64,000 bases of DNA from Gracilariopsis chorda. Its lineage: Eukaryota; Rhodophyta; Florideophyceae; Gracilariales; Gracilariaceae. The notes under the pieces were generated by a model, which had not been told where the DNA came from, did not search any database, and was given only the letters and a program-made list of their open reading frames with translations. Below, piece after piece: positions 34,001-61,839 of this stretch. Within the stretch, counting starts at the first letter, position 1; every line of letters starts with the position of its first letter. The stretch is taken from the NCBI GenBank assembly GCA_003194525.1, contig NBIV01000304.1:1-64000 (forward strand). Reading direction: 5' to 3'. The translations under genes and the position numbers were made by a program.

Positions 34001-34363
34001 CAAAGATCAGTACATATTCGAGGTTGAAAATCTTGTCGACGGCAAAAAAAGCTAGTACACGGACGAAGACTTAATTTTTTCTGGAACAAGGACTACGAGA
34101 TATCTGAAGACATTCGAGAACATCTCGCGTATCAGCAGAACGAGCTTTTAGTTGTCGAGGATTTCGAAGATATTCGTCGCAGTGAGAACAAAACGGAGCT
34201 GTTAGTGAAGTGGACCGGTTTCGCTAAGGACGAAGCAGACTGGATCAGTTTTGAATCTCTACGCCAGGACGTACCGGAGTTACTGGAAGAGTATCTCAAA
34301 GAAGTGCAGAAAACTGGAACACGTAGACATCGCAACATAGTATCTGATATCAAGAAGAAATAA
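31098..34363 (+). pseudogene. pol (RT-RNase H-integrase-chromodomain), degenerate
   Basis: RT carries the first Asp in FANIDFTHGYWQIPLD, but the YxDD-type site reads WLHDFLLHAKNEEEL, so one catalytic Asp has become His. RNase H begins with CLFTDASETHWVGVLTQ. Integrase has its zinc-binding HHCC region (HSGKGGHRA, CFHC). The first core Asp appears replaced (LHFTYCYM), while ISDQGSHFKN and SNGSVEVV supply the other two. A GPF-type motif (LRWQGPFRVLQ) follows near 33990. A chromodomain is readable in another frame at about 34100-34363 (TELLVKWTGFAKDEADW). In-frame stops lie at 32274, near 32417 and 32426, at 33591, 33852 and near 34052. The chromodomain would have guided integration into marked chromatin. 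No activity is expected now. Confidence 0.88.
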
Positions 34364-34391
34364 CAGCATTGGAGTTGCAGTTATGGGAGAT

Positions 34392-34703
34392 TGTTGATAG
34401 CATACCTACTTGGTGCGTAGGGTGCTTGGAAGTTGTGGTGCTCGTGCGTAGGTTGCAGAAACCCACCAGCACCATTGTTGCGTAGTAGATATAGAAGAGC
34501 TATAATTCATACTGTTACCAGAAAGAGAAGTACACTCTTTTGGAAGCCTAAAACGGTATATAAAAACCTGACTTCTGCAGTACAGAGCAGAAGTCAGAGG
34601 CGTTGAAGGAACGGACTCCTTCAGCTGTATGCCTGTTCTCTGTACCCAGTACCCGAGCTCGTTAACCCGATCTGACGTACCGCGAACGCTGTTCTACCCA
34701 ACA
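34392..34703 (+). repeat. 3' LTR (312 bp)
   Basis: Copy of the LTR at 29369-29677 with the same TGTTGATAGC start and ACCCAACA end, followed by the second GTTGA duplication. A short purine-rich tract (ATGGGAGA) just before it could be the polypurine tract. Confidence 0.93.
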
Positions 34704-35189
34704 GTTGAATAGTTTAGTCATTGTGCACTGATAACTAGAAGAATGTCTGGGTAGACTTAATGGCATGTGCGTGAATAGATAGAACCCGGAGGGTCGGACG
34801 AACAGTTTCTTTTGGATATCCTCCTTTGGAACAGAGAGTTAGTCATATCTATATTTCGCCTCCGAAGCCGTGAAAACGGTAAGAGTTCCGAAACAATCGA
34901 TGCATTTCTGCACAGGAGGGATTAGATATGTGTCTGCAACGAGTGGGATCTCTTTACTGATACTCTTCCTCTGATAAGTCGATGACCTTCCTTTTGTACT
35001 GCTTAGCGAGCATTAACTTCGCTTATGTACATTATTCTCGACGACCGTTCAGACCATCTACACCCCTTTCCTTCTGCACCACTTCAAATTAAGACTTCAA
35101 GACCGTTCAATTGCTACACTTACGATTCCAAGAAGGTGCCATTGCTACAGTGTCTGTAATAGCCAAGAATATCAGTCGTCCATCTCAAA

Positions 35190-35440
35190 ACAAACATCCT
35201 CAAGGACTCATCAAATTTCAAAAGCAGTACAGCTGGGGATGCCCAGCTGGTCTCAATCACGACTTTGCAGTTTGTTTTATCCGCTTGGAACTGCTTTTCT
35301 TGTGTGTTCGGTCCTGCCCTGTACCGGGGTTGTGAAAATGGATGCATTCTTGACAGTAAGTCCATCCGGTGTTTCTTGGCATTAATTCAGGCAGTAAAGC
35401 CCTCCCACGTTTTGGTATATTTCCGTACCATATTACAGAT
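35190..35440 (-). pseudogene. Fragment of Ty3/gypsy RT N-terminus
   Basis: The minus strand reads TSWASPAVLLLKFDESLR and, upstream, a PRYRAGPN segment. These line up with SPWASPVVLALKADGTWR and PPYRAGPK in the element at 41200-52894. At DNA level the plus strand here (TCCGGTGTTTCTTGGCATTA) matches about 48533-48552 of that element without gaps. It is a short decayed copy of the same lineage. Confidence 0.7.
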
Positions 35441-35760
35441 ACTTGCAAGGTGCGATTACTGCAAGTGATGGAGATCAGGCTTTTGGAGAGTCTCCAGAGG
35501 GCAGTGGCGTATTTGTGACAACGTTCTCGGAAGCCTTCTAAGTCAGTAGTCGCGCCTTTTTTGACGGTAGTCAGTCAGATGAAGTCACAATATAGTCATC
35601 TTTACTTGTTTCGAATCTCTCGTGCTACGGTACATACTAAACGTCTGAATCCATCCACAGCAGATGCAGAAGCCCGATTCGTGGCATTATACAGTATTGT
35701 CCTTGAGCTCGTTGGACACGTAAACAGGTATAAGCTAGGTCATTTTCAGAGTGCTCGACA

Positions 35761-35813
35761 GTGGGACTGGGACTGGGACTGCTTCCCTTCTTCTTCTTCT
35801 TTTTCTTCTTTAT
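35761..35813. repeat. Microsatellite: GGGACT repeats followed by TTC repeats
   Basis: Three GGGACT units are followed by a pyrimidine tract of repeated TTC with small interruptions. Confidence 0.8.
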
Positions 35814-36020
35814 GGGCGCACATTGTCTAATTGCGACGCTATGGTAGAGCTTATCATAATTCCTTCTCAATCTGTCAACAACTAAGGTTAACCGCTAGCT
35901 ACTCCTCGTGAATGACAAGTTCTCTCTACCCCGTTACACCAGTCTTTAACTCCCGACCCAAAATATTGTTGATGGCTGTTGCTTGCTCCCACCCTGCTGC
36001 AGCCGTGTTACGCTCACTAA

Positions 36021-39129: not shown

Positions 39130-41199
39130 CTAGTCTATGTTCCAATACCCGGTAGCCAACATTCGATTCATCTCTGCTGATTGAGTCGTGCTACGCTTTG
39201 TTAATGCGTCGGCAATATTGTTCCGTCCCGGAATCCAAGATATTTATCAAGCTCACCGGATTCGAAAGCGTTTTGCAGCATTGTCACTGTTTTGCGCAGC
39301 AGAAACTCTCGGCATTCGTGTAGGGTAGTCACTGTATCGAACAGAGACTTCGAGTCTACTAGCATTCGGTGCTTGATATCGCAGTCCTGGAAGATGTTAT
39401 TGAACGATTCCTTAATGTCGTATCCACGATCTTCTGCTTCCGTGCAAGCTAGGATCTCTGCTCCAAACGATTAGTACGTTACTCGGCGTTGTTTTGAGCT
39501 CGCCCAGTATAGCGGGTGGAACAAAGGCTTGTCGTGCATGTCAGTCGTAAGTCTCAGTTCACAGATGAGTCCCGTTTGTCCATATGGTTGTTGGTTAGTT
39601 CCGTGTGACGCGTCCGAAAGGCTAACAATATCCACTGCTGATATTCCCAATGGGCGCACGAACTTGATCACAGGGTGTAGATTTCGTATATCACTCAGCA
39701 TGGCGTTGGCTTCGACGATGTGTTTAACTCTCAAATCTCCTAGTTGTTGCTGCATTCTAGACGTGACGAAAGATGCTTGCGGTAACACTCCTGATCCAAG
39801 GTACATCATCGTCCCGGCCAATGATCTATACTCGTGCGTCTCATATTCGGTGGTTTTGTCCTCTCTTTGTCTTCTCCTGGCCCTAGAGAGATCTATGCTG
39901 TTCAGGCGCTGTAGATAGGGCTCCATGGATAGTTATACGTCTCCTTCGTCGTTGATATTGATATCACATCCTGCGAAGTTGAGTTTGCTGTCGAGTCTGA
40001 TCTTTCCTACCTCGAATTCTTCTTGTAACTTCTGCATGAAGTTTGATATATCCGACGTATGCCCCGCTACTAGAAGGTCGTCGACGAGTTTGATTACTGC
40101 AAGATATATACGACCTTCATCGCGTCGGAGGAACATTCGGTTCACTCCGTATACGCGTGTGAATGCCATGGTATCGAGCAGCCAAGTCTCTATACGTTTG
40201 GCCCATTGTCTGCCTGCTTCGACTATGCCGTATGGTAGCTTCGTGAGCTTCCACAGCACGTGTCTCTTGATTCTGAACTCAGGCGCCGGTCTGACGTATA
40301 TATCCCTGCAGATTGGTCCGCTCTGTAGGTAAGCGCCTTTAATGTCTGCCACGCCAAAGGAGAATCCTAGACGTAGAGCGATGCTGATAAGGAGTCTGAC
40401 GATTATCATGTCTGCATTTGCACAATCCTTCCTGATCTCGTCTTTGTGGTCATCCTTGTTTCCGTGTGTAACGAGTCTGGCTTTGAGTTTGCGCATTTCT
40501 TCCTCATCCTGTTTCACCTTGTACACTGTATGCGACGAAATGATGTTGGCCTCGTCTGGTAATTCTGATTCGTGGACTTCCTCGTATGCACCGATCCAGT
40601 TGTCTCTGTGTTCCTTTTCTGCGGCTTTTTGGAGCAACCATGATGGTGCGAACTGGACTTCGCGAGCGGTGACCTGTCTAGTGCCGATTACTTTTTGCAT
40701 GCTCTTGAGTACTTCTTTTTCCTGGCTATTCAGGGTATTGGGTCCCTCCATCTCCGAATTCTCTAGCAGTTCTTCGGTGTATGCTCCCATGTCCTTGCGT
40801 ACGCGTTCCTCCTTCTGCATGCTAGCCATGAGATATGCTGAAACCTGTGGCTCGTTCTCCTGACCGTCGCTCTGGTCGGGGCTTAACGTGAGGTCGATGT
40901 AGTCCTCCATGAGTCCTTCTGACAGCTCCCTAGTGAGTGTTGAGCTGGGTCGAAGTCGTATATCCTCGTAAGCGACTTTCGATATAGGTCCTTTCTCCTT
41001 TCGTCGCACTTCCACGTAATGAGGGTGTGCTCTCACTACGGTTGCCTCTCTCCACTCGTCGGGTACGTTGTGTGCAGATGTCTTGAAGTAGAACAGGATT
41101 TCATCTCCTGGGTTTATATGCAGTTGAGATAGAGTGGAAGGGTTGCGTGATCGCATGACCTTTTGTAACGCACGGGTCTCGCATTGTTCCATATATGCC
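39130..41199 (-). pseudogene. Copia pol 3' part: integrase tail, RT and RNase H
   Basis: The second half of the copia pol gene. RT contains the first Asp in GVADIKGAYLQSGP and the active-site pair in AVIKLVDDLLVAGHT. RNase H contains SLSDASHGTNQQPYGQTG and a typical end (NIADALTK, then LATGYW) closing at the TAG at 39130. Two lesions are seen: TAA at 39471-39473, where the family has Ser in VTYSSFGAE, and a frame change near 39245. The right edge is the insertion point of the nested gypsy element, where the frame runs artificially into gypsy LTR sequence. The first half of the gene resumes at 52895. Confidence 0.88.
41195..41199. repeat. Target-site duplication ATGCC (left copy)
   Basis: ATGCC precedes the TG start of the gypsy LTR at 41200 and recurs at 52895-52899 after its CA end. 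Joining the flanks through one copy keeps the copia codons in register. Confidence 0.92.
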
Positions 41200-42025
41200 T
41201 GTGGTGCAATGCCCCAAAGGGGAAAAACACCGAAAGACGTTCGGGATCTTCCTCTCACGAGGTGAACCCAGTTGGGTAGAGTCCTCCCAGAGGTGTCACG
41301 GCGAAGCCGGTTTGTAAGACCAGGGACACCTGTCGCGACTTGCGCAGGGAGGTGAAGGCGAAGAATCGGTATCCTCGTGAGCGGGGTGTGATCCTCAGTA
41401 GAGGTATGTTTCCACGTAAGTGGGGGTGTGTGAGCGGATGCGCACACGAGGGCTGCGGATAGCGGGAGGTGCTACCCTAAAAAGGGGAAAAAGGAAGGGC
41501 AAAGAGGAGGAAGAGAGGACGAAGTGAGTCGCGAGAGCGACGAGGACGAACGGCGATGCCGGTAACAATATCCCTATACAGGGCGAAACACCAATGCAAT
41601 TGGAACAATTGTACTCCCAGTGATGGGTCCCTTTAGATGTGCAAGGGGGTTAGATGTCCCGTGGTTCACGGCGTTTCCCTCCAAGGAGGGGTAGAGCAAG
41701 CGCGCGAGCGGTAACAACTAGAGCCAATTCCCCAGGTTGGGGTCCCTTTTTGGGGAAGGTTTACTGGTGCGACGGCAGTGCGCCGTCGCACTAAGTACTA
41801 GCTTCCCAGAAATGGGTGTGCAAATAATAAATAATATTAACTAAAATACTCCACATTTCGTGGCAACATCCACTACTGTAGCCAACCGCCAATTGACCCA
41901 GAACCGTGTCCCACGTGTCCATATCCACCATAGTGGGGCGTAGTTCATATACACACTACACAACCGATAATATCGGGAAAGCGTTCAAGTACCAAGAATC
42001 CCTCCCTGAGGGCGTTTGCACTTCA
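41200..42025 (-). repeat. Gypsy 3' LTR (826 bp)
   Basis: Plus strand TGTGGTGCAATG to GTTTGCACTTCA. It aligns end to end with 52068-52894, and with the solo LTR at 57094-57918 in reverse. It contains numerous hairpins, the longest having a 9-bp stem (TGCGACGGC facing GCCGTCGCA) near 41770-41793. Confidence 0.95.
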
Positions 42026-42038
42026 TATCCCCCCCTTA
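42026..42038 (-). promoter_or_regulatory. Polypurine tract
   Basis: On the sense strand AAGGGGGGGATA directly abuts the 3' LTR. This is the expected site and composition for priming plus-strand DNA synthesis. Confidence 0.75.
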
Positions 42039-42081
42039 AGACGGGAAAACGACCGCGGACGCGGAGGATTCCCAGACGAAA

Positions 42082-43869
42082 ATGGGTGATAAAAGCGCGT
42101 GCTCTGTCTCCGGTTCTCCGGTAAAGCCCTCTGCACCAGAGTCATCAAGCACACAAACGACAACAACAGCCACCCTCCAAAAGGGAAAAATGAACGACGA
42201 CAACAACATCAACAACCACAGCCAACCTCCGAGACTTCTCGGGCGATACACCACCGGTTTCCGGTCAGTTCCCCTGCCTCAGGGCGATCGAAATCCGGTA
42301 CAACCGGGGAATATGGCTGCTGCTGCCGACCATCCCTTCGCATTACCACCTTCGGTGGTGTCCTCCGGAACCACTCCGGTGTCCAACTGGCCAACCTACA
42401 ACACCCTGGTGGGGCTCAACCCGATGAATCGGAATCACGCGTCGCGCCTGCGCCTTGCCCCGTGGTTTCACCCGGTCGCTGTCCTCAATGAGGGATTGGT
42501 CACCGCTTATGCGGATGGCTCAGACACCCTTCCCGGGGATCTGCCCAGAGCAGTCACCACGTCGTGGGATTGGCGTCACCGGATTGCGATTCCGCGTCAC
42601 CACCTCCGAAGAATTTCGGGCGAGACCGTCGCTGCGGCGCAGACCGCGTTGACGCGGATGGCGTACCAACAGAAGAGCCGGGCTCCATTCGATGTACCGG
42701 TCCCACCGGAGTTTGGCTTTGACGTTAGCTACTTCCGCACTCGCGGGGAGATTGGGTACGGCGAGAACCTGTTCCGCCTCGAGACCCTCGCTTGGAGGAA
42801 TTTCCCCGCAGCGCGGCAAGAAGCCCTTTGCTAGGAGCGACCGATTATTCGGGCGGAGTTCAGGTACCTTCCCCAGCAATACCGGTCCAACTTTCTCCAA
42901 AACTTCATCCGCTACGAGCGGCGTTGGCGATCCCGATTCGGGTATTTTATCCCGTATCACAACGTGGAGATAGAGCGGATTGCGCCGCCTCACCGACTAG
43001 GTCGGTATGTAGCACTCCCCGAGTGGTGGCGCTTCCATGAAGCCTGCCGGGGGTGCTACATAGAACTCCCGCCGGTACTTACGTACCTCGGTTCGCTGCT
43101 CATGCAGGATCCCCGGTCGGGGTTGTGGTCCGTAGTGGTTACGGAGTGGGCGGCCCGCACTGCGGCTTATATCCTCAACGAGGGTTACGACCAGTATCGT
43201 CTCTGGTTCCTTCAACCGCGTGTGCGGGCAGCGATCCGAAACCTGGATCTTCGCATCCCCCTTGGGGGCCAGGCCAACAATGAAGAGGTCCTCCAATTAC
43301 TTGGGTACATCGACAGCGTTAGCTGGAGTGAGGTCCCGCTGGAGCAAAGCGGTCGTGTGGATGGCGGTAGCGGTAACACCGGTGGTCCAGGACTCAGTAG
43401 AAACATCGCCCTTGCGGGGGATTTTATCTACTTCGACCCCTGGGAGTTCCGGGAAATTTCCTCCGAGGAGGCGCGCGAGCTTCGCGATACGCCCCGGCAT
43501 GTTCCGGAAGACCACCCGGTGGGGTACGTCGATTCTGACGACTACTACCGCGCATACGGCGGGGATGACCCAATGGTCGATAACGAACCGGAAGAACCCG
43601 GGGAGATGGACGTAGAGGAAACCGGCGCTAGCGCGGAAGCTTTCCCAGAGGGGGTATCTCCGGCCGAGCCGGCTGCTGACCCTTCGGCGGCAAGTGCCGG
43701 ACCTTCTATCCCCAGCGGGGTGACGGCGAATGAAAACGAAATCATCGCACGTTTCCTCCGGGGTGCCGGTCTTAGCGCTGCCGAGGTATCGGGGGATGTC
43801 ACCACCATGGCGGACGCGTTGGCCTACCGCCTTGCTGGGGGTTACGCCCCGGACGATGGGGGTGAGTGA
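42082..43869 (+). CDS. Antisense ORF of the gypsy element, one internal TAG
   Basis: An open plus-strand frame of about 595 codons opposite to gag-pol, lying between the end of pol (44061) and the 3' LTR (42025) and convergent with pol. It starts at ATG 42082, 56 bp inside the LTR boundary, so transcription would have to begin in or near the LTR on the antisense strand. A TAG at 42832-42834 divides it, and the frame continues without loss on the other side. The N-terminus is Ser/Thr/Asn-rich, the middle is aromatic and Arg-rich (PQQYRSNFLQNFIRYERRW, then LPEWWRFHEACRGC), and the C-terminus is acidic (NEPEEPGEMDVEE). No known domain is recognised. Antisense ORFs at this position are known in plant Tat-lineage gypsy elements (Retand, Grande, Ogre). 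A role is not established. Confidence 0.6.
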
Positions 43870-44060
43870 ACCCTCTAGTCTATTTTCCTGGTTCTTCTTT
43901 CCCTGGCTATGCCAGTTAGTGTAGTGTAGTATTGTGGGGAGCTAGCTGCTCCCTTGAATAAACTTTCCCGTTTAGAACGGTGCTTCTCGGTTGAGTTCCC
44001 CGTCTTCGACGGACTTTGCCTTGTTATCCTTTCCTTTCGCTCTCCCCTCGCGCGGCAACG

Positions 44061-47000
44061 TTACCCAACTTGGGCATTAACCAGCGTGGCTGGGGCTGCA
44101 GTTCCCGTTTGACGGTGGTATCGCAGGACCTGCGACCGTGGGACGTGTTCAATTGGCTCCCACGTATCCCCACTGGGGTCATACCCGTACCAGCGGACGC
44201 AGTATTGTAGAATACCATCCTGGTCCCAGGTGTGTCCGACAAGTCGGTCTACTACGAACTCTCGTTCGTAGACCTGCCGGCCGTGCCAGGTGGTGGTTGT
44301 AATCCCTGGCGAGGGTTGCCCGCGGTGCGGTATAATGTCCCTTAGCAGGGTGTTCGGCGATAACTCCGACGTTGCCGTGCGCTGTCCTAGTGGCCGCTGC
44401 TCATGCGGGAAAATATCCCTCAAGAGGGTGTGTGGTGTCACGGTTTTCACCGGCAAGTCGTTCCCCAGAGGGGTGTCGTTTTTCCCGTCTTCACGGTAGG
44501 CCGGGCGAACCGCCAGTCGGCGGGGGACTTGGGTTCCGCCTTCGCGGTTGAGCTCACGAACCGCGAGTTTGCGGGAAGATGACCGCTCCTGCGGGATCGG
44601 CATTTCCACAATCCCCTGGGGGGGCCCGTGCGACACGGTGATTGGGTGGCAAACCGCCTCCCTGCCAGGCGCGCGAGCGCTCTGCACCATACGTTCCGGC
44701 GATGCCGTGGTGTCCCCGGCTACTGACGGGTTGCCTGGGGCTAACTCCGGTACACCGGTATTTTGGTCAAAATTCCCCTTTGGGGGGTGCCGGGCAGGTG
44801 CCGATGACACCCTTTTCAGGGGCTTGGCCGCTAAGTGCGCTGCACCGTCTCCACGCGGAGGAGCAGCGTCCGGTATGACCGGTTTCGAGCGTGTGATGGG
44901 GTGCGCTTTTTCCGAGTTCCTCGGTTCTTCCCCGCAGCGTTGCGGGAGGTGGCGCAAATTATTCCCCGTAGCGGGGGCTTTGATTCCGTCAACGACGGGA
45001 GGCGTTTCCGGTGCTTGCGAGCCAGGGCATAAAGCTTCGACTGCGGCTTGGCTGCCTTTTTCCCCAAGAGGGGTGTGGGTATTTCCCTGTGAGGCCGGCG
45101 TATCTGGGCGCCCCTTCTCCGCAAGGCGCGGGTCTGATCGACCTGATTGAACCGCTTCCGCGGGGACTTCCGCCAACGGCGGCTTCGAGGCATCGCCCTG
45201 CTCAGGGGATTGGGGGCAATCGTCACCATACTCCCTTGTCGGGCATCCTTCCCTGACAGGGGTGTGCGGTAGTTGCGCTTCAACTTCCTGTGTAGCACGG
45301 TATGTTTTCCGCGTTTGTGGCGATGCCTCCGGGGATGGATTGGGCGATTGCCTTTCCGCTGCTGCGGTATTGGAGTGAGACTTCTCGTTTTCCCGTGACA
45401 AACGGTGCATTTGCCGCTTTTGCGGGGCCTGCGCGTCTGGTTCCTGTTGCACAGCACTGCCCGGGAACGGGGGATTAGTGTCGCGTGACATAATCCGTGC
45501 TCTACGGTCAGTGTTCCGTATGTTACGGCGTGTTTCCCGTTGCGACGGCGATATCGTTCCTCGAAAACGAGTGTTCTCCTCCTCCTCCTTAGACGGAGCG
45601 GCGGGATAAGGGATAACATTCCCCGCCTGGCGGGTATTGATGCGCGCCAGTGGGGCGGACGTGGTAGGGGCGGGCGCTGAGGGGCCCGAATTACCCGGCT
45701 GAGCCGGTGAGTCCGACAGAGTCGGTAGGTCTGAGAATCCCCGGCTGGGGTTTGGTAGTACCGTAGGTCTAGTACTCCCGGATGGTTCCGGTGTTCCAGA
45801 GTCCGTAGAAACGGGTTTGCCTGGATCCAGGACTACCTCTGACGAGGGAGGAGGGGCAAGGACAACACGATCACGGGAAATCCGTTCGTGCGTGTCGCCC
45901 ATCTCTACCACGACAGTGTCGGTGTTAACAGAGATGACCTTGAATCGTCCATCGGCCACAGGCGAGAGTTTATGGCGCTTCTCCCGTTCCGGGTTGTAGT
46001 ACTCCTTCCTGATGAAGACGTAGTTATTCGCCCGAATCGGGGACGGTTTCCCTCGCAAGCGAGCATCAAAATCCCGCTTGTAAGCGGCTTGGGCCCGTGC
46101 CATAGACATCTGCGCAGCGGGGACCAGCTTGGAAAGCCATTGCTTCCATTGCTGCCGGTAGATACCCACAGATGGGAAATTGTCCAAGGTAGCTTGGGGT
46201 TCCAGCGCCACAGACGGGGGTGTTCTAGATAGAACCAACTCGAATGGCGAAACTCTGGTAGTCCGGTGTACCTGCGTATTGTACGCGTAGGTTACCGCAT
46301 CAGCGTAGAGATCCCAATTCGTTGGGTGGTCAGCGACGTAGGGACGTAACGCCGTGAGTAACGTCCGGTTAAACCGTTCAACTTGCCCATTACACTGGGG
46401 GTCGTAGGTAGTCGTGAACAAGTTCTTGACATCCAGGATGCGACAAACATCCTGGAAGAACTTGCTCACGAACTGCTTCCCGTTGTCGGAGAGCACCTCC
46501 ACAGGGGGACCGTAGACAAAAATCCAGTGCTTCACCAGAGCCTGGGCCACCGTGAGAGCGGTTATCCTCCGAAGAGGGACAGTCCGTACCAGCTTAGAAA
46601 AGCGGTCGGTGATGACAAGTAGAAACTTGTTTCCAGGTTTTGTGGTGAGTAGTGGTCCGAGAAGATCAATTGCGATAAACTCGAGTGGCGCCCTTGCGGG
46701 GAATAGTTTCATCTTCTTCGCATTTTTGCGGAGTTTGACGCGATTCTTCGCGCATTCGCTACAAAACCGCACGGTTGCGTAGCAATCCACCGCCATTGCG
46801 GGCCAATAGAAATCCCTTCGCAGGGTTAGGTAGAGTTTCCTCCCACCTTGGTGACCTCCAATGGGGGCGCAGTGTGATAGATGTAACACCCGCGATTGCA
46901 GGGAATGTGGTACCACAATCTGTGGGCGGGCTTCGACCTTTCTTACGAGGTAGCCTTTGTCGTTTACCCCGAAAGGGAGATCTTCACCACCGTTGATACG

Positions 47001-49769
47001 GGCACGAATCCTCGTACAGAACGGGTCGCCGAACTGTTCTCGGATCATTTCTTCCGGTGATACCGGTACAAAGTTTCCCGGTAACGGGTTCTCAGATTTA
47101 TCTCGCGATGCGAGTAGTTCGTCAAAATCAGCATCCTCGTTCCAGTTTTCTGGCCTAGCCTCGACGGCATATTCCGCATCATCCGGGTCTATAGCCATGA
47201 AACATGGGACTTCATCATCCTCCGTTGGGAGTGCTTCCCCACTTGTGGGTAACCGCGACAAAGCGTCGGCCTGGGTGTTCTGCGCACCCTTTTTATAAAT
47301 GACTTGAAAGTCATATTCCGCGAGGCGGAGTCTCCAGCGCATGAGGCGTCCCGACGGGTCGGAGATATTCATCAACCACCTCAATGAGGAATGATCCGTG
47401 TACACGGTGAAATGAATTCCCATAAGGTAGGAGCGCAGAGTGGTCATCGCCCATACGACGGCGAGGCACTCTTTCTCCGATACGGAGTAGTTCCGCTCAT
47501 GAAAATTGAGCGAGCGCGACCAATAACCAATTGGATGTCGTTCCCCCTCGGGGGTGGTTTGAAAAAGAGCACACCCGACTTGGTAGTCGCCCGAGTCCGT
47601 ATCTACGGAGTATGGCAACCCAAGTTTTGGGAGATGTAGGATTGGTGCTGATGTGACAGCTTCCTTTAAGGAGTTGAAGGCTTCCGATTGCTCAGGCGTA
47701 AACGTTCCCAGTTTTGGGGGGTTCCCCTTTCGCAACAACGCGTTTAGGGGCGCTGCAGTATCCGAAAAGTTCGGGATAAACCGTCGATAGACGTTGACCA
47801 GCCCCAAAAAGGAGCGCAGTTCCGTTTGAGTACGGGGTTCTTTCGCCTCAACGAGGGATTTGACTCGAGCTTTCTCGATCGCTAACCGTCCAGGACGGAT
47901 AATGTGACCCAGATACTTCACAGTATCTGTGAAAAACTCGCATTTCCTCAACTTGAGAGTAATTCCCGCATCGCGGAGTACGGTCAGCACGTCTCGGACG
48001 TGAGTGAGATGGTCGTCCAACGAGTTGGAGAAGATGATAATATCATCAAGGTAGACCAGACAACTCCGCCACTTGAAGCGGTTGAGTAGAATATCTACTG
48101 CACGCTGAAAGGTGGCAGGGGCGTTGGTTAACCCAAATGGCATCCGCTTGAAGCGGTACGTCCCTGCATGGCAGGTGAATGCGGTTTTGTCGCGATCCTC
48201 CTGTCTGACAGGTACTTGCCAATATCCCCAATTGGCATCAAGGGCCGTGAACACGGCGGCGTCTCCAAGGGAGTCAATGCACTCGTCCATACGAGGGATG
48301 GGGTACGTGTCCCTAACAGTCACGGCATTGAGCCGGCGTTAGTCGACACAGAACCTCCAGGTTCCGTCGGCCTTTAAAGCCAGTACAACTGGGGATGCCC
48401 AGGGTGATTGAGCGGGCTCAATCACACCTGCGCGGAGCATCTTGTCCACTTGGGACTGCTCCTCTTCCCGAGCTTTCGGACCTGCCCTGTAAGGGGGTTG
48501 TGCAACCGGTCACGCACCGGGGATTAAATCGATCCGGTGTTCCGTTGCATTAATCTCGCCAAGCGAGCCATCCCACATTGTGGTGAATTCCCGTAACATA
48601 GTACGGAGTTTGTCGCGGTGCGACTCTGGCACGTGGCTGAAGTCCAGCGCTTCAAGTGCTTTTTCCGGATCAATCCGGTCGTTGCTTGATGGAACATTGT
48701 CCTGTGGAACAGGTGTGGTTCGCAATTCCGAGTTACTCGGTATGTTCGACGCTGAAGTAGCGGTTTCCTCCCCCTCCTTAGACTTGACGTCTTCGGACGG
48801 CGGGGCGAACTCCTCAGAAGAGGTGGTAACTCCGAGTACATCGGCGGCTGTCATCGTTGTTGGCAGCATTCCCATAGGATGGGGGGTTACACTCCCAATT
48901 ACTTGGTGTTTTACCAGATACTGGGGGTGTTTGCCAAGGTTGGCAACCAATATCCGGAAAGGAACATCCGGGGAAATGGAGACAATTCCATTAGCCAGCG
49001 CCAGCTGGGATTTCTCGTACAACGAGGCAAGGGGTTGTATAACCCGAAGACCGTGTTGACGGGAATTTACCTGCACCCAGACTTGGGACTCAGCCGGTAT
49101 AGAAACCGAGGCAGCGACGCGGAGCTTGGTGGACTCGCGGGACGCGGGCGGTGGTTCCTGCGCAGCAGGGAGCGGAACGTGTTTCCGAGAGCACCGCTTT
49201 AGCGGGCGGCGAACAATCGGAACCGACGATCCGTCGTCAAGTTCTACACGCCTGAGGCGGGGCCTGATTGCGTCGACAAATCTGTCGCAGTAATCACATC
49301 CCAGTATCACTGGTGCTGCCAATGAACGGCAAACGATGAAGTCCAACTTCACCACAGAGGTACCAAGTCTCACGACGAGGTCCACTGTGCCCACCGTTTG
49401 TAACGGATTGTTGTTCGCATCCGAAATGTCGGGGACCGCGTCAGAGCGGATACGCCACCGCACAAGCTGGGGTAACAATGATTCCACAACAAAGTTGGGG
49501 CCTGCACCTGTATCCAGGACGGTGAGAAACCTCACCATAAACTGGGGGTCAAGGCCAAGGTCGGCATGGACCTTATAATTGCGCTTGGCCAAGACCAAGA
49601 CTCTACCGGGAATCCGGGGATTTTTACTCTGTATCCACGGGCGACACAACACACCGAGGTGCGCAGAGGCCGCGTCAGCGGTGTCTTTCCTCGAGAGGAC
49701 TTTCACCGGGGAGCGAGGCGAGGACGCCTCAGGCGCCAACAGCCTCGTTGTTGAGGACGCCTCTCCCAA
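44061..49769 (-). pseudogene. Gypsy pro-pol: protease, RT, RNase H, integrase, chromodomain
   Basis: The frame lies in -1 register to gag and overlaps its end. Protease has FLTVLDTGAGPNF. A TGA at 48510-48512 and a TAA at 48339-48341 (where VDYRRLN is expected) are the only stops. RT has VFTALDANWGYWQV and the active site CLVYLDDIIIF (near 48050). RNase H has PYSVDTDSGDYQVG. Integrase has a zinc-binding region with HLSHCAPIGGHQGG and CSEC, and the catalytic residues in FIAIDLLGPL, VLSDNGKQF and GQVERFNR (near 46675, 46490 and 46385). After integrase comes a Pro/Ser/Arg-rich spacer of about 550 residues. The C-terminal chromodomain at 44061-44270 contains QYCVRWYGYDPSGDTWEP. If the two stops are recent, the element could have been active shortly before. 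Confidence 0.93.
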
Positions 49770-49786
49770 AGGGGAGACTCCTTCAG

Positions 49787-51961
49787 TTAGTTTTCCGACT
49801 TCGGCGGTGGGTTGGTTTCCTCGACAACGAGTGCTTCATCCCGTTGACGGGGGTTTCTATCCGCATAAGCGGGGGTTGCAACGGATGGTTGCGTGATCTC
49901 CCGAATCGGGGTGTATGAAGCTTGCCGCGCACGCGGGGTCTGTGGTAGGGCGTGAGAAAAGTCCGTTTTAGCACGGAGGTAGGAAGCCGTCGGGACGGAT
50001 CGTTTCTCCTCTGGAGTGAGGGCCTCATAATTTGCCACCACCTTGGCCATATCCTTCAGTGAACAACTACACTGAGGAGAGGTATGGCCATGGGCATAGC
50101 ACAGGTGGCAAATGAGAGCCAGCACCGCGACACGCGGAGTATTATTCCGAGTATCGGAGAAGCGAACCCTAGGGCGGGTGTCAGTCCATCCAGGCCGTTG
50201 ATAACGGGATTGACCGTTTGAAAACGGGAGTCGTTGGGGTTGAACCCGACTGTTACCACCGTACAAAACGGGGTCTTCCGTTCCCGTATCACGGGTCATC
50301 TCCGTCGTTGACGGCAAATCACTGGTGGTTATCGACACACCATCCCCCTGCACTAAATGCACGGTATCAAATCCCTGTCCAGGGTTCCCATCCGCGGTGA
50401 GCGGGAGAGAGGAAGCTTCGCTTTCCAGCAACAACGCCTTGGCGGATTTAGACCGATTGTTCGGAGTTCTTGCACGAAGTGCATCCCCTTCCGCTCGGGC
50501 GTGTTGGACCAGCTCGAGGTAGGTGATCTTCCGCTTGTCCTCCCGATAACGGGTAACTAAACTCCGGATTGCCGGGTCAAGACCATCGATGAACATGGTA
50601 CTGCGCTCCCCAGCGGGGTATACGTTACCACATCTGTGGAAAGCCTTGTTGAGGCGCACCGAGTAATCGGTCTCGGTCTCTCCAGCACGCTGGCGTGTAT
50701 CTCGCAAAGCGAGGATAGCCTGCTGAATAGCGGTGTTGGTGGCGTAGGAGCGCAGAAGATACTGCACAGCCACCGGCCAGCAAGTAACTCCTCCCTCGGA
50801 GGCGCGAGAAGATCCTCTGACAGAGGTGTATTGGTCCTCCGCCACTCCCCGTAAGAAATACGGTAAAGCCAAATAGGCTTGTCCCTCATTCATACCGAGG
50901 ATATTGGCCTCCGCTACAAAGCAGGATAGGAAATCCAGTACTAAGACTGGGTCCTCTCCAGTACAATACTGGTTGCGGAGCGAGAGCTGCATTCGCTTAA
51001 TGCATTCTAGCACCTTTCCCGTACCACGGGGCGTACGTCCAGGTGACGAGTCTTCGAGCCGGTAGTACCGGTATGATAAAAGCTTCCGGTAATCCGGGTT
51101 TGTCGGTTTCAATTCCCGGAGACTGGGGTGTCTTCTCCCCTTCTGGCGGGTTCGGACCACACCTTCAGTGGCCGATGACCGCTTCGAGCGGGAGGAGTAG
51201 CCTCGCTTCTCGTCCTCCGAGTCGGAGTCCGAGGAGCTCGAGCTAACCGAATGGTTTCGGGATGATTCCGACGATCTCGAACAATCGGAGTCCGAATATT
51301 TTCGGTGGTGTTTCCGTCGATGACGGCGTTTCTTCTTCCCAGCAAGCTGGTCGTTGTGCGATGCCCCGTTTACCGGATCATCCGGGGATGGTTTGTCCAT
51401 GAGGACGAACTGCTCCAGCGTCTCCAGGCGGGCACCAATCCGATCAAGTCGGGCTTCAACTCCTTCGATGAAGGTGGCGGGTTGGCCCAAACTCTCCAAC
51501 ACGGAGTTGACGTCAGACCGTAAAATACGGAGTTCCTCGGCGACCTCCTTTACGGGGGTTGCCGAGACCACCTCTTGGAGGGATTTTAGTTCCCCTAAAA
51601 GGGTGTCATGGGCGGTCCACAGAGCGCGGACCTGGGATTCCAGGGAAGTCCCCTGGGGGATGTTATCGCCGGTTCCACGGGGACTTGAAGCCGCGACAGC
51701 CGGAGCAGGCCGGGGTGCCTGGGGCACTGCGGCAACAGCCGGAGTCGATGCTGCATTCCCCTGCGGGGGTGATAACGAGGGCAAAAGGAGGTTCCGGGGT
51801 TCACGGTCGGGGGTATCATTCCGCGATGAAGCGGCGCCAGCACGGCTGGAACTTGTCCGTATAGGGATACGGGGTACGAACCGAACTTCGGAAGTGTCCG
51901 CGTTGTCGCGGGAGCGACTATGCGTAACCACTGGCTCCGCGTCGGAGGGATTTCTCGACAT
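49787..51961 (-). CDS. Gypsy gag polyprotein
   Basis: An intact 724-codon frame from ATG 51961, 106 bp downstream of the 5' LTR, that encodes the structural protein of the retroelement particle. The N-terminal 200 residues are Pro/Ser/Ala-rich, with a coiled-coil-like stretch (EGVEARLDRIGARLETLEQF). A very basic tract (KKKRRHRRKHHRKY) and a Ser/Asp repeat region follow. The capsid-like part lies at about residues 290-500 (ILALRDTRQRAGETETDYSV is typical of Retrotrans_gag). A CCHC zinc knuckle, CHLCYAHGHTSPQC, is at about residue 625. The size is large for a gypsy gag. The stop at 49787 overlaps the -1 frame pro-pol, so frameshifting at or near GGAAAAC just before the stop would be needed. Confidence 0.9.
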   Translation of the reverse strand: MSRNPSDAEPVVTHSRSRDNADTSEVRFVPRIPIRTSSSRAGAASSRNDTPDREPRNLLLPSLSPPQGNAASTPAVAAVPQAPRPAPAVAASSPRGTGDNIPQGTSLESQVRALWTAHDTLLGELKSLQEVVSATPVKEVAEELRILRSDVNSVLESLGQPATFIEGVEARLDRIGARLETLEQFVLMDKPSPDDPVNGASHNDQLAGKKKRRHRRKHHRKYSDSDCSRSSESSRNHSVSSSSSDSDSEDEKRGYSSRSKRSSATEGVVRTRQKGRRHPSLRELKPTNPDYRKLLSYRYYRLEDSSPGRTPRGTGKVLECIKRMQLSLRNQYCTGEDPVLVLDFLSCFVAEANILGMNEGQAYLALPYFLRGVAEDQYTSVRGSSRASEGGVTCWPVAVQYLLRSYATNTAIQQAILALRDTRQRAGETETDYSVRLNKAFHRCGNVYPAGERSTMFIDGLDPAIRSLVTRYREDKRKITYLELVQHARAEGDALRARTPNNRSKSAKALLLESEASSLPLTADGNPGQGFDTVHLVQGDGVSITTSDLPSTTEMTRDTGTEDPVLYGGNSRVQPQRLPFSNGQSRYQRPGWTDTRPRVRFSDTRNNTPRVAVLALICHLCYAHGHTSPQCSCSLKDMAKVVANYEALTPEEKRSVPTASYLRAKTDFSHALPQTPRARQASYTPIREITQPSVATPAYADRNPRQRDEALVVEETNPPPKSEN

Positions 51962-52050
51962 GAGAAAATACCGTTACGACGGGAAACGATCACGGAACTT
52001 CCGGTGAATAAAAACAAACCTCGTAAGAGGGAAAACCAAAAACCGATTCT

Positions 52051-52067
52051 AGGTCGGGAGACCACTT
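52051..52067 (-). promoter_or_regulatory. tRNA primer-binding site
   Basis: Three bases after the 5' LTR on the sense strand comes TGGTCTCCCGACC, of the TGG-start form complementary to a tRNA 3' end. The primer tRNA was not identified. Confidence 0.65.
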
Positions 52068-52894
52068 TGTGGTGCAATGCCCCAAAGGGGAAAAACACCG
52101 AAAGACGTTCGGGATCTTCCTCTCACGAGGTGAACCCAGTTGGGTAGAGCCCTTCCAGAGGTGTCACGGCGAAGCCGGTTTGTAAGACCAGGGACACCTG
52201 TCGCGACTCGCGCAGGGAGGTGAAGGCGAAGAATCGGTATCCGCGTGAGCGGGGTGTGATCCTCAGTAGAGGTATGTTTCCACGTAAGTGGGGGTGTGTG
52301 AGCGGATGCGCACACGAGGGCCGCGGATAGCGGGAGGTGCTACCCTAAAAAGGGGGAAAAGGAAGGGCCAAGAGGAGGAAGAGAGGACGTTGTGAGTCGC
52401 GAGAGCGACGAACAGATACGGCGATGCCGGTAACAATATCCCTATACAGGGCGAAACACCAATATGATTGGAACAATTGTACTCCTAAGGATGGGCTTCT
52501 TTAGATGTGCAAGGGGGTTAGATGTCCCGTGGTTTACGGCGTTTCCCTCCAAGGAGGAGTAGAGTACGCGCGCAAGCGGCAACAACTAGAGCCAATTCCA
52601 CAGGTTGGGGTCCCTTTTTGGGGAAGGTTTACTGGTGCGACGGCAGTGCGCCGTCGCACTAAGTACTAGCTTCCAAGAAATGGGTGTGAAAATAATAAAT
52701 AATATTAACTAAAATACTCCACATTTCGTGGCAACATCCACTACTGTATCCAACCGCCAATTGACCCCAATACCATGTCCCACGTGTCCATATCCACCAT
52801 AGTGGGGCGTAGTTCATATACACACTACACAACCGATAATATCGGGAAAGCGTTCAAGTACCAAGAATCCCTCCCTGAGGGCGTTTGCACTTCA
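52068..52894 (-). repeat. Gypsy 5' LTR (827 bp)
   Basis: Partner of 41200-42025. It differs at about 35 positions, several of them inside hairpin loops, and is followed by the second ATGCC at 52895-52899. Short frames starting MCASAH in this LTR, and in its copies at 41190-41447 and 57671-58057, are LTR sequence rather than genes. Confidence 0.95.
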
Positions 52895-54070
52895 ATGCCT
52901 GCATGAGTTCTTCTGATACCATTCTCCGTGGTGCACCCAGTATTGAAGGGGCGTATCCTTTGGCTAGTTCGAACGAGCTAAGCACTTTAGAACCGGTAAA
53001 CAGGTTTGAAAGGAAAGCCGCGCGTGAAAATATGGTCTTGTCTGTGTCAGTAGAGTCTTCTTTCTGGATCTTTTCCATTATGCGTTTAACGACGCCGTTC
53101 TTACGCTCGATGATGCCTGTTTTGTTATGTCGTCTAACGGGTCGTACTTTCAGCTCAATGTTCCTCCCGTTCAAGAATCTTCGAATCTCTTTGGAAGTCA
53201 TTTCGTCGTCTGCTGACAATGCTTCTGGTGCCCCTTGTCGATTGATCCATTCGGTCTCTATCAATCTAACGGTCGTGTTGGATTTTCGGTCACTTACTAT
53301 TCCCGCTTCGGAGTACCCGGTGACGCAGTCAACCATATGTAAACAAGTATATTGCGTTCCTCGGATATCTACAAACGTGAAATCGATTTGTATTTCTACG
53401 TTGAATGCCTGGTTCACGTGGTTGATCGATATCTTTCGCATTGGCTTTGGGGGTCCTGATTTGGCGCAGATGAGGCAGTTGTCGGATATCGCTCTTATTT
53501 CCTCTTCGACTGATTTCGAGATGTGTCCGGACCTCCTACATAATTGTATCAGCTCTTCTGGTGTCGCGTGTGTCAGTCGATGCAACCTTTTCGCGAGTGT
53601 GGTCGGCCTTATGTGTTGGGAGTTTGCTGACAGGAGTGACTTCATCATATAGGTTATCCGCATGTGTGCCCTCGAGTTGTATCGAGAAGAGGTGAGGTAC
53701 ACTTCGACAGTTCTCGGCTTCGAGTCTTCTGGACGCCTTATCGTCATCGTGGCTGGTTTCGAAGTCATGTCCGTTACACTATACCTCCTGATATCCAGTC
53801 CAATCGTCAACGGGGTTTCGTCGTCAAATAAGTCGAATGTGAGTTCTATTGGTTGGTTATGAATGTCCTGGAACGAAACGGACCATGAGCACAGAACTGG
53901 TTTGGGCTTGATGCACTCGTTCCCCCATCCTCTATGGTAGCGGGACCTTGGTCTATCTGGTTGGAATTGTATGTCCATAGCGGTACACAGTCTCAAGGCG
54001 GCTCTTATGCTTCTCGAAGATATAGGGCTCCCTTCGTCGAGTATGGGATTCGGATCCTCTTCCGAATCCC
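52895..54070 (-). CDS. Copia pol 5' part: protease and integrase
   Basis: The first half of the copia pol gene, in -1 register to gag. The protease site reads PILDEGSPISS (about 54020), with Glu where Ser or Thr normally follows the catalytic Asp, then TPLTIGLDIRRYS as the family's second half. Integrase has a zinc-binding region (RLHRLTHATPEEL, then NCLICAKSG) and the core acids in EIQIDFTFVD, LSADDEMTSKE and GIIERKNGV. The frame is intact to the insertion point at 52895, where the nested gypsy element cuts it. The gene continues at 41199. Before the insertion this pol had no visible lesion in its first half. Confidence 0.9.
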
Positions 54071-56853: not shown

Positions 56854-57093
56854 TTGCAATCCGACAGGAGTTCTTCTTCTCATCAACCGCCATCACGACG
56901 TAGTGGGCCCCGGTTGGCAGCGGGCGTTCTTTCAAAAGAATATATACAGCCCGTGAATCATGGAAACATAACCAATGAACTTGCGCAGATGGACATAGTA
57001 ACTAGAATCCATCTTTCACAAAATTTTATGGAACCTCATAACCCTGAAAAGATGTACTTGAACGCGTCTTATTCTTCAAGCGCTCACCAGGAA
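56854..57093 (+). CDS. Hypothetical ORF interrupted by the solo LTR
   Basis: An 80-codon frame, Ser/Arg-rich at the start, ends inside the solo LTR. Removing the LTR and one AGGAA copy lets the frame run a further nine codons past the insertion point before a TGA. No domain is recognised. It may be a host exon or a piece of another transposon. Confidence 0.25.
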
Positions 57094-57918
57094 TGAAGTG
57101 CAACGCCCTCAGGGAGAGATTCCTGGTACTTGATCGTTTTCCCGATATTATCGGTTGTGTAGTGTGTATATGAAATACGCCCCACAATGGTGGGTATGGA
57201 CACGTGGGACACGGTTTTGGGTCAATTGGCGGTTAGACACAGTAGTGGATGTTGCCACGAAATGTGGAGTATTTTAGTTAATATTATTTATTATTTTCAC
57301 ACCCATTTCTGGGAAGCTAGTACTTAGTGCGACGGCGCACTGCCGTCGCACCAGTAAACCTTCCCCAACAAGGGACCCCAACCTGGGGAATTGGCTCTAG
57401 TTGTTACCGCTTGCGCGCGTGCTCTACTCCTCCTTGGAGGGAAACGCCGTGAACCACGGGACATCTAACCCCCTTGCACATCTAAAGAGACCCATCACTG
57501 GGAGTATAATTGTTCCAATTGCATTGGTGTTTCGCCCTGTATAGGGATATTGTTACCGGCATCGCCGTTCGTCCCCGTCGCTCTCGCGACTCACCTCGCC
57601 CTCTCTTCCTCCTCTTCGCCCTTCCTTTTTCCCCTTTTTAGGGTAGCACCTCCCGCTATCCGCGGCCCTCGTGTGCGCATCCGCTCACACACCCTCACTT
57701 ACGTGGAAACATACCTCTACTGAGGATCACACCCCGCTCACGAGGATACCGATTCTTCGCCTTCACCTCCCTGCGCAAGTCGCGACAGGTGTCCCTGGTC
57801 TTACAAACCGGCTTCGCCGTGACACCTCTGGGAGGGCTCTACCCAACTGGGTTCACCTCGTGAGAGGAAGATCCCGAACGTCTTTAGGTGTTTTTCCCCT
57901 TTGGGGCATTGCACCACA
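57094..57918 (+). repeat. Solo LTR of the hairpin gypsy family
   Basis: 825 bp that aligns in reverse orientation to the LTRs at 41200-42025 and 52068-52894, from TGAAGTGCAACGCC to TTGCACCACA. AGGAA flanks it on both sides (57089-57093 and 57919-57923). It therefore inserted as a full element and later lost its interior by recombination between LTRs. Confidence 0.93.
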
Positions 57919-58028
57919 AGGAACGAGAAGAAGGTTATGTGGCTCGCTGAGAGGCCTCTTTAAGGCATTCACTATGGCGCAAAATATGTCTGGAATGCAA
58001 TGGCAAAGAATGCTTTTCAAGCCTTCAT

Positions 58029-58256
58029 TGAAACAACGTATGCGAACCGCCTACTGAGAATGTAGAAGAGTTATTCTCTGACTGGTTGCTACTCTTCTTT
58101 TACAGTGGTTTCTTCTTCTCTTGGTTCTTTTATACTGCTCATCATGCTTAATCTATCTGATGCTCGAGACCAATTAGAACCCTCATCCGTCACGAACTCT
58201 CAATTGTTCGTTAACGCTTTTCCAAGTACGACCTTTCATAACGATACTCGTTGCAA
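58029..58256 (-). repeat. LTR of degenerate gypsy element (3' side)
   Basis: Shares TGCTTAATCTATCTGATGCT and its flanks with 62716-62942, at roughly 88-90% identity by eye. TTTTATACTGCTCATC at about 58129 recurs at 62815. Confidence 0.8.
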
Positions 58257-58496
58257 CATTGTCCATGCCGCGTATTAACAACCTCTTCAATGCAAATGTG
58301 TTAGGAGATTCTTGGTTACAATATAATCACGAAACGCCTTTGTGAGAGTCCCATCTGCATCGACAAAGTCTCGCGTTGGTTGCCACTGTGCGTCATGGGT
58401 ATTCGCATTTTCGATAAGCGTAAGCAACTGATATCCTCTTACTCTTCTGCGACTAGCCAAAATGCGTTCAAATTTGTAGTGATTGCCAGAACGTGA

Positions 58497-61813: not shown

Positions 61814-61839
61814 AAGGCCTTTCTACGTGCTCTTCTCAC

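Follow-up and report, generated by a model that had tools for sequence, protein, structure and literature searches.

Does the mosaic of short perfect hairpins that runs through a retrotransposon of the red alga Gracilariopsis chorda result from base composition, from the way the element is copied, or from selection for a structure that its nucleic acid adopts? The element lies in a 64,000 nucleotide stretch of contig NBIV01000304.1, here called the window, and its hairpins are present in both LTRs and in coding DNA of both strands.

The element and its hairpins

The features to which the analysis refers are as follows.

41200..52894, minus strand as sense strand: LTR retrotransposon of the Ty3/gypsy type with an integrase chromodomain
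41195..41199 (left) and 52895..52899 (right): TSD, ATGCC
52068..52894, minus: 5′ LTR, TG...CA, rich in hairpins
49787..51961, minus: gag-like ORF, 724 aa, with a basic/serine-rich stretch
48510..49769, minus: ORF between gag and RT
44061..48323, minus: pol ORF with RT, RNase H, H2C2, integrase core, a long tail and a C-terminal chromodomain
42964..43869, plus: one part of the antisense gene, 301 aa in the window copy
42082..42834, plus: the other part of the antisense gene, 250 aa in the window copy
42026..42037, minus: polypurine tract AAGGGGGGGATA preceding the 3′ LTR, read in the sequence
41200..42025, minus: 3′ LTR
57094..57918, plus: solo LTR of the same family, equally rich in hairpins
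57089-57093 and 57919-57923: TSD of the solo LTR, AGGAA
47238..47249: example hairpin CCCAC-TT-GTGGG (CCCACTTGTGGG)
45622..45634: example unit of 5 bp and 3 nt, CCCGC-cag-GCGGG in the sense strand

The TG..CA LTRs, the TSD, the polypurine tract and the order RT - RNase H - integrase are those of Ty3/gypsy elements, and the chromodomain at the integrase C-terminus (PF00385, pol residues 1355-1396 of 1419, E 2.9e-9) is that of a chromovirus. The two LTRs differ by 36 substitutions, clustered in part, over 829 aligned columns. Pfam searches gave no match for the gag-like ORF, which has a CX2CX4HX4C motif that we take to be a knuckle, nor for the ORF between gag and RT, in which a DTGA motif presumably resembles that of an aspartic protease. 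An Rfam scan of the window gave no match, a tRNA scan found none and a search of viral contigs also gave none.

The antisense gene is conserved, and by hand count a longer frame of about 609 codons is present in more than half of the copies listed. Comparison of the antisense protein with Pfam and PDB sequences revealed nothing convincing, and the antisense proteins of one family A and one family B copy had no match to TRP28 (PF04195) up to E 5.

Hairpins in excess of composition and codon use

The element is richer in GC (0.565) than its surroundings, which might favour composition, codon use or chance as the maker of the hairpins, but there is next to no probability that this is so. The element has 195 hairpins with a stem of at least 5 and a loop of 2-5, versus 45.1 (sd 6.0) in 40 dinucleotide shuffles. 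The left LTR (13 hairpins vs 2.7 shuffled), the right LTR (10 vs 2.5) and the solo LTR near 57 kb (12 vs 2.8) all have the excess, whereas the flanking copia DNA is at chance (left 17 vs 18.6, right 20 vs 15.2), as the earlier note had stated. The elements at 29369-34703 (17 vs 19.1) and 58026-62942 (20 vs 19.4) are likewise at their shuffled values, and the rest of the window is at about 1x (79 vs 75.1 in 1-20000; 55 vs 58.8 in 20001-36000). Shuffling of synonymous codons, with the protein retained (300 shuffles per element ORF, 100 per control ORF), fails to reproduce the hairpins in all five ORFs of the element: there are 45 vs 5.2 in gag, 21 vs 3.5 in the ORF between gag and RT, 87 vs 12.9 in pol, and 14 vs 3.4 and 18 vs 2.6 in the antisense ORFs at 42964..43869 and 42082..42834, respectively. 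The coding hairpins occupy all three frames, on both coding strands. Five control ORFs of the window have 5, 3, 0, 0 and 2 hairpins versus 1.9, 0.9, 0.6, 0.8 and 1.0 in codon shuffles, with the two copia ORFs of this set extending 248 and 41 bases into the LTRs of the element. Composition and codon use were rejected on the basis of both types of shuffle, and the occurrence of the same pattern in the LTRs, on both coding strands and in three families also argues against them. Since shuffled sequences and copia DNA score far lower than the element, neither of the outcomes by which the earlier note would have reduced the pattern to composition is observed.

The four hairpins named in that note are present, CCGCATAAGCGG at 49861, CCCACTTGTGGG at 47238, CCGTGTACACGG at 47396 and CCGCGTTGACGCGG at 42644. 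In 45541-45850 there are five hairpins with stems of at least 5, as that note had counted, and 11 with stems of at least 4 and loops of 2-4, two overlapping pairs included, where the note had about nine to ten. The stems were also said to begin almost always with CC and end with GG. Such ends are greatly enriched, in 58 of 87 hairpins with stem 5 and loop 3 (1.8 expected) and 95 of 184 with stem 4 and loop 4 (6.0 expected), but 'almost always' is a little too strong.

Geometry of the unit

The recurring unit has a C-G-based stem of 3-5 Watson-Crick pairs and a loop of 3-4 nt, about 12 nt in total, and there are 216 non-overlapping CC...GG hairpins in the 11.7 kb (about 18 per kb). The CC-GG base is the fixed part; the stem interior and loop are free in sequence, the linkers are A/T-rich, and in logos of the 4+4 and 5+3 units no base exceeds about 42% at any loop position. 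Pairing stops inward at 3-4 nt, inside which it is at chance level (24-26%), and true palindromes, which have loop 0, show no enrichment (7 vs 11.8); double-stranded dyad binding sites were rejected on these grounds. The preferred distance to the next unit is about 21 nt, with 62 next-neighbour centre distances of 17-26 nt, 15 of 27-35 nt and 37 of 36-46 nt. Relative to a hard-core null, a 21-nt period has z 3.1 in family A and 3.0 in family C, at a 5% threshold of 3.2, and there is none in B. A quarter of the start-to-start spacings are of at least 65 nt, so the CC..GG units cover the element incompletely. Hairpins are enriched 7-13x per family in every bin of predicted RNA energy at or below -2 kcal/mol, and mostly less in the bins above, which hold few cases. 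Because enrichment hardly varies with energy below -2 kcal/mol, selection for stability past a threshold was rejected.

Three families share the lattice

Three related families in the genome, A (that of the window element), B and C, carry the hairpin lattice, and the sister families have 70-76% nucleotide identity. Kinship of the RT, meaning here a tblastn relation to further loci in the genome that carry RT_RNaseH, was followed in the 30 best of 150 listed loci, as pieces of ~3.3 kb. Twenty-eight of these, from more distant gypsy elements, hold 0-2 hairpins per ~3.3 kb, but their equal scores and GC indicate many near-identical copies of few families; of the two others, L067 belongs to family B and L061 holds a family A LTR. 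The lattice is thus present in the three-family clade and absent from the 28 sampled loci of distant gypsy elements. Family A has over a hundred copies in the genome, with at least 150 antisense-gene matches, among the matches listed, at an identity of at least 92%.

Selection on the stems

Between families, stems are identical 1.5-4 times as often as matched spans without a hairpin. Comparison of A with C gives 29 identical stems out of 57, where shifted windows are identical in 12% of cases and CC..GG spans without a hairpin in 18 of 60; from B to A there are 13 out of 26, versus 6% and 9 of 69. Tests on A and on C are not independent, because the two families share hairpins. Divergence at third codon positions is 0.19-0.47 in stems, 0.47-0.56 elsewhere and 0.52-0.62 in loops, and is lower in stems in six of six comparisons. 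Against composition-matched controls the conservation of stems is weaker: five of the six comparisons show less divergence at inner stem positions (p=0.01-0.64), and all six show less at the outer CC/GG positions (p=0.11-0.89). Compensatory changes, for which the earlier note had proposed a search, do occur, with 11 of the 18 pairs changed on both sides between A and C being Watson-Crick (1/3 expected, p=0.014).

Within family A, the best 30 of 96 listed matches, a set that includes the window copy and is not random, have variants shared by at least four copies in 2 of 686 stem columns versus 53 of 3,382 columns elsewhere (p=0.006). Variants in two or three copies hardly avoid stems (11/686 vs 66/3,382), and singletons are equally frequent in both (77/686 vs 394/3,382). 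Stem columns show no reduced variability in a set of nine LTR copies (5/156 vs 17/604 in other columns). The data as a whole indicate that stems are maintained from family to family as well as in the active lineage, and that constraint is lost after insertion. The hairpins thus appear to be kept by selection and probably have some function.

Strand and pairing rules

Folding of RNA in windows gave an MFE difference of 11.8% for the sense and 10.7% for the antisense strand, versus -1.4, 2.7 and -1.1% in three control regions, with z<-2 in 23 of 58 sense windows of the element and 2 of 106 windows of the controls. RNA folding in excess is thus supported. The earlier suggestion that the hairpins may fold the RNA genome finds no backing in a preference for the sense strand: predicted hairpin pairing is no better in sense than in antisense (113 of 216 units), and sense G-U pairs are hardly accepted. 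Linkers optimised for the sense RNA were rejected, with predicted hairpin pairing no better in real than in shuffled linkers (0.44 vs 0.47, sd 0.03).

At dG <= -2, sense G-U pairs number 12 in A (11.7 expected), 7 in B (5.4) and 10 in C (5.2). They are tolerated roughly as little as other mismatches, which is unusual for an RNA signal. In total there are 29 G-U pairs (22.3 expected) and 73 A-C pairs (25.6 expected; p=0.0002 for the excess of A-C over G-U), an A-C pair in the sense strand being G-T on the minus strand. In family A most of the A-C excess consists of C-A at the pair that closes the loop, and a preference of the loop may account for it. A strong sense bias for A next to hairpins, first noticed in pol, was dropped, as over nine regions from the three families A exceeds T only slightly.

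Possible functions and origins

Our main reading, with a probability of about 0.4, is that this clade has been selected for folding units that are putative sites for an element protein on the replicating strand, for its condensation or packaging. A gypsy clade of at least three families would have acquired, under selection, several hundred similar units of ~12 nt, which would fold as single strands, in genomic RNA or cDNA, during replication of the element; that a folded strand is the relevant form is suggested because pairing stops at 3-4-nt loops and loop-0 palindromes are not enriched. A protein encoded by the element would bind these dispersed units, with Gag/nucleocapsid as the first candidate and the product of the antisense gene as the second, and the binder would condense or package the nucleic acid, much as with the dispersed packaging signals of small RNA viruses. 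Against this reading stand the unwelcome sense G-U pairs, the equal folding of both strands, hairpin pairing no better than with shuffled linkers, the lack of a loop motif such as known coat-protein sites have, the weaker stem conservation under composition-matched controls, the variants in two or three copies, the LTR stems and a 21-nt period that falls short of 5% significance. A tentative possibility is a second structural code, strictly Watson-Crick and on both strands, that would serve as a scaffold of the element's nucleic acid or hide both of its RNAs from guide-RNA silencing, by a principle of which we know no description in mobile elements. Shielding of CC from a CC-targeting deaminase is a further conceivable role.

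That the hairpins, in sense and antisense RNAs, evade dsRNA formation and Argonaute targeting is rather unlikely, as is the mechanism this would require, in which few guide-length stretches are left free and sense-antisense annealing is slowed. It would account for pairing that is strictly Watson-Crick and symmetrical between the strands, G-U on one strand being a broken A-C on the other, and it agrees with the conserved antisense gene, the equal excess folding, the spacing of units close to guide length and two strong Piwi-domain matches in the host genome; an RdRP search was silent, but so were its controls. The spacings of at least 65 nt argue against it, however, as do the sampled loci of other gypsy elements, which manage in the same genome without a lattice. 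Hairpins formed in single-stranded cDNA, with minus-strand units that help or protect the reverse-transcription intermediate, are unlikely. Pairing is DNA-like, with sense G-U no better than other mismatches and less in excess than A-C, and the LTRs carry hairpins too, but the A-C excess of family A may reflect its loops and the slight surplus of A over T points to RNA. Nor do we know of any requirement for hairpins of this type in cDNA, which also counts against the idea.

Functionless hairpins generated by template switching or quasi-palindrome correction in reverse transcription, as the earlier note had considered, are very unlikely. Stems in which one arm is a copy of the other would be strictly Watson-Crick and indifferent to sequence, but such copying would be expected to alter single arms and let stems drift in pairs, and the data disagree. 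Hairpins were gained mostly by point changes in both arms (13 of 19 hairpins that are specific to one family and have at least two lineage changes; one arm in 6 of 19), stems have drifted less than the DNA around them, and paired changes are rare (11 of 261 pairs between A and C). Template switching was rejected for these reasons; in addition, the other sampled gypsy loci are without the lattice, and copying would presumably leave stem ends, loop length and spacing free to vary rather than fixed at CC..GG, 3-4 nt and ~21 nt.

Relation to known systems

A literature search, which covered few subscription papers, found no retroelement with a comparable hairpin lattice, in agreement with the earlier note. 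Dispersed RNA structure has been argued for in RNA viruses, with dispersed packaging signals described for MS2, picornaviruses and the hepatitis B pregenomic RNA (PMC6281560). These signals, like the element, comprise many short stem-loops genome-wide with largely free sequence, and their spacing matters in a model virus, but they share a motif that is read by the coat protein, in MS2 a loop plus a bulge (PMC6281560). The element has many dispersed stem-loops under selection but no shared loop motif, and it differs also in that the C-G base is fixed, pairing is strictly Watson-Crick and the units number ~18 per kb.

Genome-scale ordered RNA structure is the folding of RNA-virus genomes below sequence-order controls by means of varied structures. 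Under this definition, as we understand it, the element qualifies, with a folding excess over its whole length (11.8% in sense, controls near 0), but in place of varied structures it has a single, uniform unit of 12 nt that is equal in the two strands.

Genomic RNA of yeast Ty3, of the same superfamily, has short palindromes at its 5′-end, one of which was examined, within a short hairpin, for its role as a dimer site, but these are six palindromes in the 5′ UTR and early GAG, and a lattice is unmentioned in the available text (PMC11381356). Plant Retand elements likewise have a long region between pol and the 3′ LTR with an antisense ORF conserved across families; they are, however, non-chromoviruses with a TRP28 domain, often with tandem repeats, and the word hairpin is absent from the main text of that report (PMC11963269). 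The element differs in that a chromodomain is present and TRP28 gave no match.

A second structural code of this kind would overlie the LTRs, gag, pol and the antisense gene with sequence-free 12-nt hairpins at a pitch of ~21 nt. One uniform unit, present 216 times in 11.7 kb, recurs in three reading frames, on two coding strands and in families that differ from one another at 24-29% of bases, and as it recurs across families, frames, strands and copies, the cost and rules of such a code are directly measurable. If the units function in packaging, they would provide a clean model of RNA selection and condensation by LTR elements; if they provide an escape from silencing, they would constitute a new counter-defence.

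Structure of the element

The hairpins lie in a gypsy retrotransposon with a chromodomain, in itself an element of a known kind, which belongs to a family designated A. The features of this family in the window are:

41200-52894, minus strand: LTR retrotransposon with LTRs, target-site duplication (TSD), polypurine tract and ORFs
42082-43869, plus strand: antisense gene of ~609 codons, found at the same place in other copies
41767-41791 and 52635-52659: long hairpin in each LTR, GTGCGACGGC-gcact-GCCGTCGCAC, with a 10-bp stem
57094-57918: solo LTR of family A, TSD AGGAA

The LTRs (827 and 826 bp) have TG..CA termini, the TSD ATGCC flanks both ends of the element and a polypurine tract precedes the 3′ LTR. 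There is a gag-like ORF, and the pol ORF, with a frame of 1425 aa in the window copy versus a recurring 1875 aa in other copies, encodes RT, RNase H, H2C2, an integrase core and the chromodomain. The 91.3 Mb host genome has at least 96 matches to the RT region, with 96-100% identity for all those listed. The element seems to be inserted within a copia-type element, with RT and integrase pieces of the latter present on both sides (39933-41199 and 52900-53996). The two LTRs (41200-42025 and 52068-52894) differ at 36 sites, several of them tightly clustered, with one 3-nt loop entirely swapped and its stem retained, which suggests recombination among LTR variants and not age alone. The 10-bp LTR hairpin is much longer than, and unlike, the ~12-nt units described below.

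The antisense gene is located downstream of pol, in a gypsy element that carries a chromodomain. Its frame is 264 codons in the window copy versus a recurring 609 elsewhere, with a frame of at least 600 codons in ~90 of the 150 matches listed (hand count). One A copy and one copy of a sister family, B, share 55% identity in the protein, and divergence at codon positions 1, 2 and 3 of its own frame (0.34, 0.29 and 0.64) is as expected of a real gene. Pfam and PDB searches with this protein identified no convincing relatives.

Excess and geometry of the hairpins

The earlier note, made from the sequence alone, reported perfect short hairpins along the element, and the four it named are all present where it placed them. 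With stems of at least 5 bp and loops of 2-5 nt, the element has 195 hairpins versus 45.1 (sd 6.0) in dinucleotide shuffles, and the excess is real. The flanking copia DNA, as that note also stated, lacks it; the ratio of observed to shuffled hairpins is 0.89-1.31 in the control regions of the window (1-20000, 20001-36000, both copia flanks and two other elements). Nor does codon use account for it. The observed hairpins outnumber those of shuffles that preserve protein and codon use in every ORF of the element examined, with 45 versus 5.2 in gag, 21 versus 3.5 in the ORF between gag and pol, 87 versus 12.9 in pol, and 14 versus 3.4 and 18 versus 2.6 in parts of the antisense gene. Five control ORFs have 5, 3, 0, 0 and 2 hairpins versus 1.9, 0.9, 0.6, 0.8 and 1.0; the first two are from copia and overlap the element by 248 and 41 bases.

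CC..GG spans with inner pairing are most commonly 11-13 nt long (length 12 with 4 pairs, 95 versus 6.0; length 13 with 5 pairs, 58 versus 1.8; length 11 with 4 pairs, 52 versus 5.8). Pairing continues inward until 3 or 4 nt remain, beyond which it is at chance level, and the fifth pair is also present in 58 of the 72 length-13 spans with 4 pairs. The outermost pair is mostly C-G and the second usually so, although any other Watson-Crick pair also occurs there; the inner pairs and loop admit all four bases, stem mismatches are rare and G-U pairs are not preferred. Flanking sequence is rich in A and T, A being slightly the commoner on the sense strand. Centres of neighbouring units in family A are preferentially spaced by 17-26 nt (n=62), are depleted at 27-35 nt (n=15) and are frequent again at 36-46 nt (n=37), similar to B (16, 2, 5) and a second sister family, C (23, 5, 14). 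A formal period of ~20.5-21 nt has z of 3.1 in A and ~3 in C, below the 5% bar of 3.2, and no ~21-nt period was found in B.

Relatives and selection on stems

Over ~3.9 kb, identity to A is 70.6% for family B (loci L067, L069 and L071) and 75.8% for family C (L070), and both carry the lattice, with 90 hairpins in 8.5 kb of L069 and 97 in 6.5 kb of L070. Of 30 loci cut out from an RT_RNaseH search (the best 30 of 150 listed), 28, including many near-identical copies and with 25-46% identity to the element pol over matched stretches, hold 0-2 hairpins each. The exceptions are L067 and L061, with most of the 21 hairpins of L061 located in its last 1.3 kb, where a family A LTR is inserted. Two gypsy families of the genome, one of them very AT-rich (35% GC), form head-to-tail arrays that repeat every ~6,349 bp (the AT-rich family) and ~5,680 bp (the other):

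L039-L053 and L055 (several contigs); C573, C819, C883 and others: head-to-tail gypsy arrays

Conservation of stems between families (for double changes, the fraction that restores a Watson-Crick pair is given; expectation, 1/3)
Comparison: wholly identical stems; double changes
A to B: 13/57; 11/20 (p=0.038)
A to C: 29/57; 11/18 (p=0.014)
B to A: 13/26; 5/8 (B rows pooled, p=0.075)
B to C: 13/26; 4/9
C to A: 29/50; 7/13
C to B: 13/50; 7/16

The corresponding identities are 6-12% in shifted windows and 11-30% in hairpin-free CC..GG spans. At third codon positions, each of the six comparisons shows less divergence in stems than in the remainder (p from 0.04 to 4e-11), and about equal or greater divergence in loops. 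Comparison with unpaired CC..GG spans gives weaker evidence for selection: inner stem positions are less divergent in five of six comparisons, one with p=0.01, and the outer CC/GG in all six, but with p=0.11-0.89.

A 4.3-kb piece was compared among 30 copies. Variants shared by at least four copies occur in 2/686 stem, 4/252 loop and 53/3382 other columns (p=0.006), and those in two or three copies in 11, 7 and 66, respectively. Variants in at least two copies avoid stems (13/686 versus 130/3634 non-stem columns; p=0.026) and singletons are equally frequent (77/686 versus 419/3634; p=0.85), so that stems appear, from these patterns, to be maintained while the element is active and to decay freely after insertion. 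In nine LTR copies, no lower variability of stems was seen (5/156 versus 17/604).

The 45 hairpins confined to a single family (A, 22; C, 15; B, 8) each have 0-4 changes in their own lineage. In 16 there is no such change, so the other families lost the hairpin, or have always lacked it, through changes in their own lineages. Among hairpins with at least two, the changes affect both arms 13 times and a single arm 6 times. Template switching that perfects palindromes, a source raised in the earlier note, would rewrite one arm and is not supported by these counts, which point to an origin by point mutation and selection.

Which molecule folds

In 200-nt windows, RNA of either strand is predicted to fold more stably than its shuffles, with a mean z of -1.65 for the sense strand (11.8%) and -1.51 for the antisense strand (10.7%); three control regions have 0.19, -0.31 and 0.12. 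When units of the same predicted RNA stability (<= -2 kcal/mol) are compared, those with Watson-Crick pairs only show 7-13-fold enrichment. A single sense G-U pair leaves little or no enrichment (A, 12 versus 11.7; B, 7 versus 5.4; C, 10 versus 5.2), and units with one G-U pair as read on the antisense strand are enriched 2-4-fold (37 versus 13.6, 12 versus 6.0 and 24 versus 6.0), in family A chiefly as C-A at the loop-closing pair. The predicted local pair probability of units is 0.44 in sense and 0.42 in antisense RNA, and 0.47 with shuffled linkers. The folded molecule may thus be the cDNA, both RNAs, or the sense RNA with strict pairing rules.

Possible function

The units are, we infer, putative dispersed sites of binding or assembly. 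This reading is placed first because the unit is uniform, regularly spaced and sequence-free over the entire element genome, as a lattice-forming nucleic-acid-binding protein would call for, and because the element's Gag has a zinc knuckle as well as a basic stretch. Placed second is the shielding of both RNAs from silencing, which would account better for the strict pairing, and the host does have Piwi-domain matches; hairpins of the cDNA come third. The Piwi-domain matches are two long ones and 44 short fragments (contigs C483, C648, C777, C944 and others), the latter often on both strands close by, recurring at ~8,000-bp steps and perhaps constituting a repeat family with inverted Argonaute-like fragments.

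Dispersed stem-loops have been described for RNA viruses (PMC6281560), as have 5′-end palindromes for Ty3 RNA (PMC11381356). A literature search found no uniform, selected hairpin lattice spanning a whole retroelement, and there is a fair chance that the principle behind such an element-wide lattice is new.
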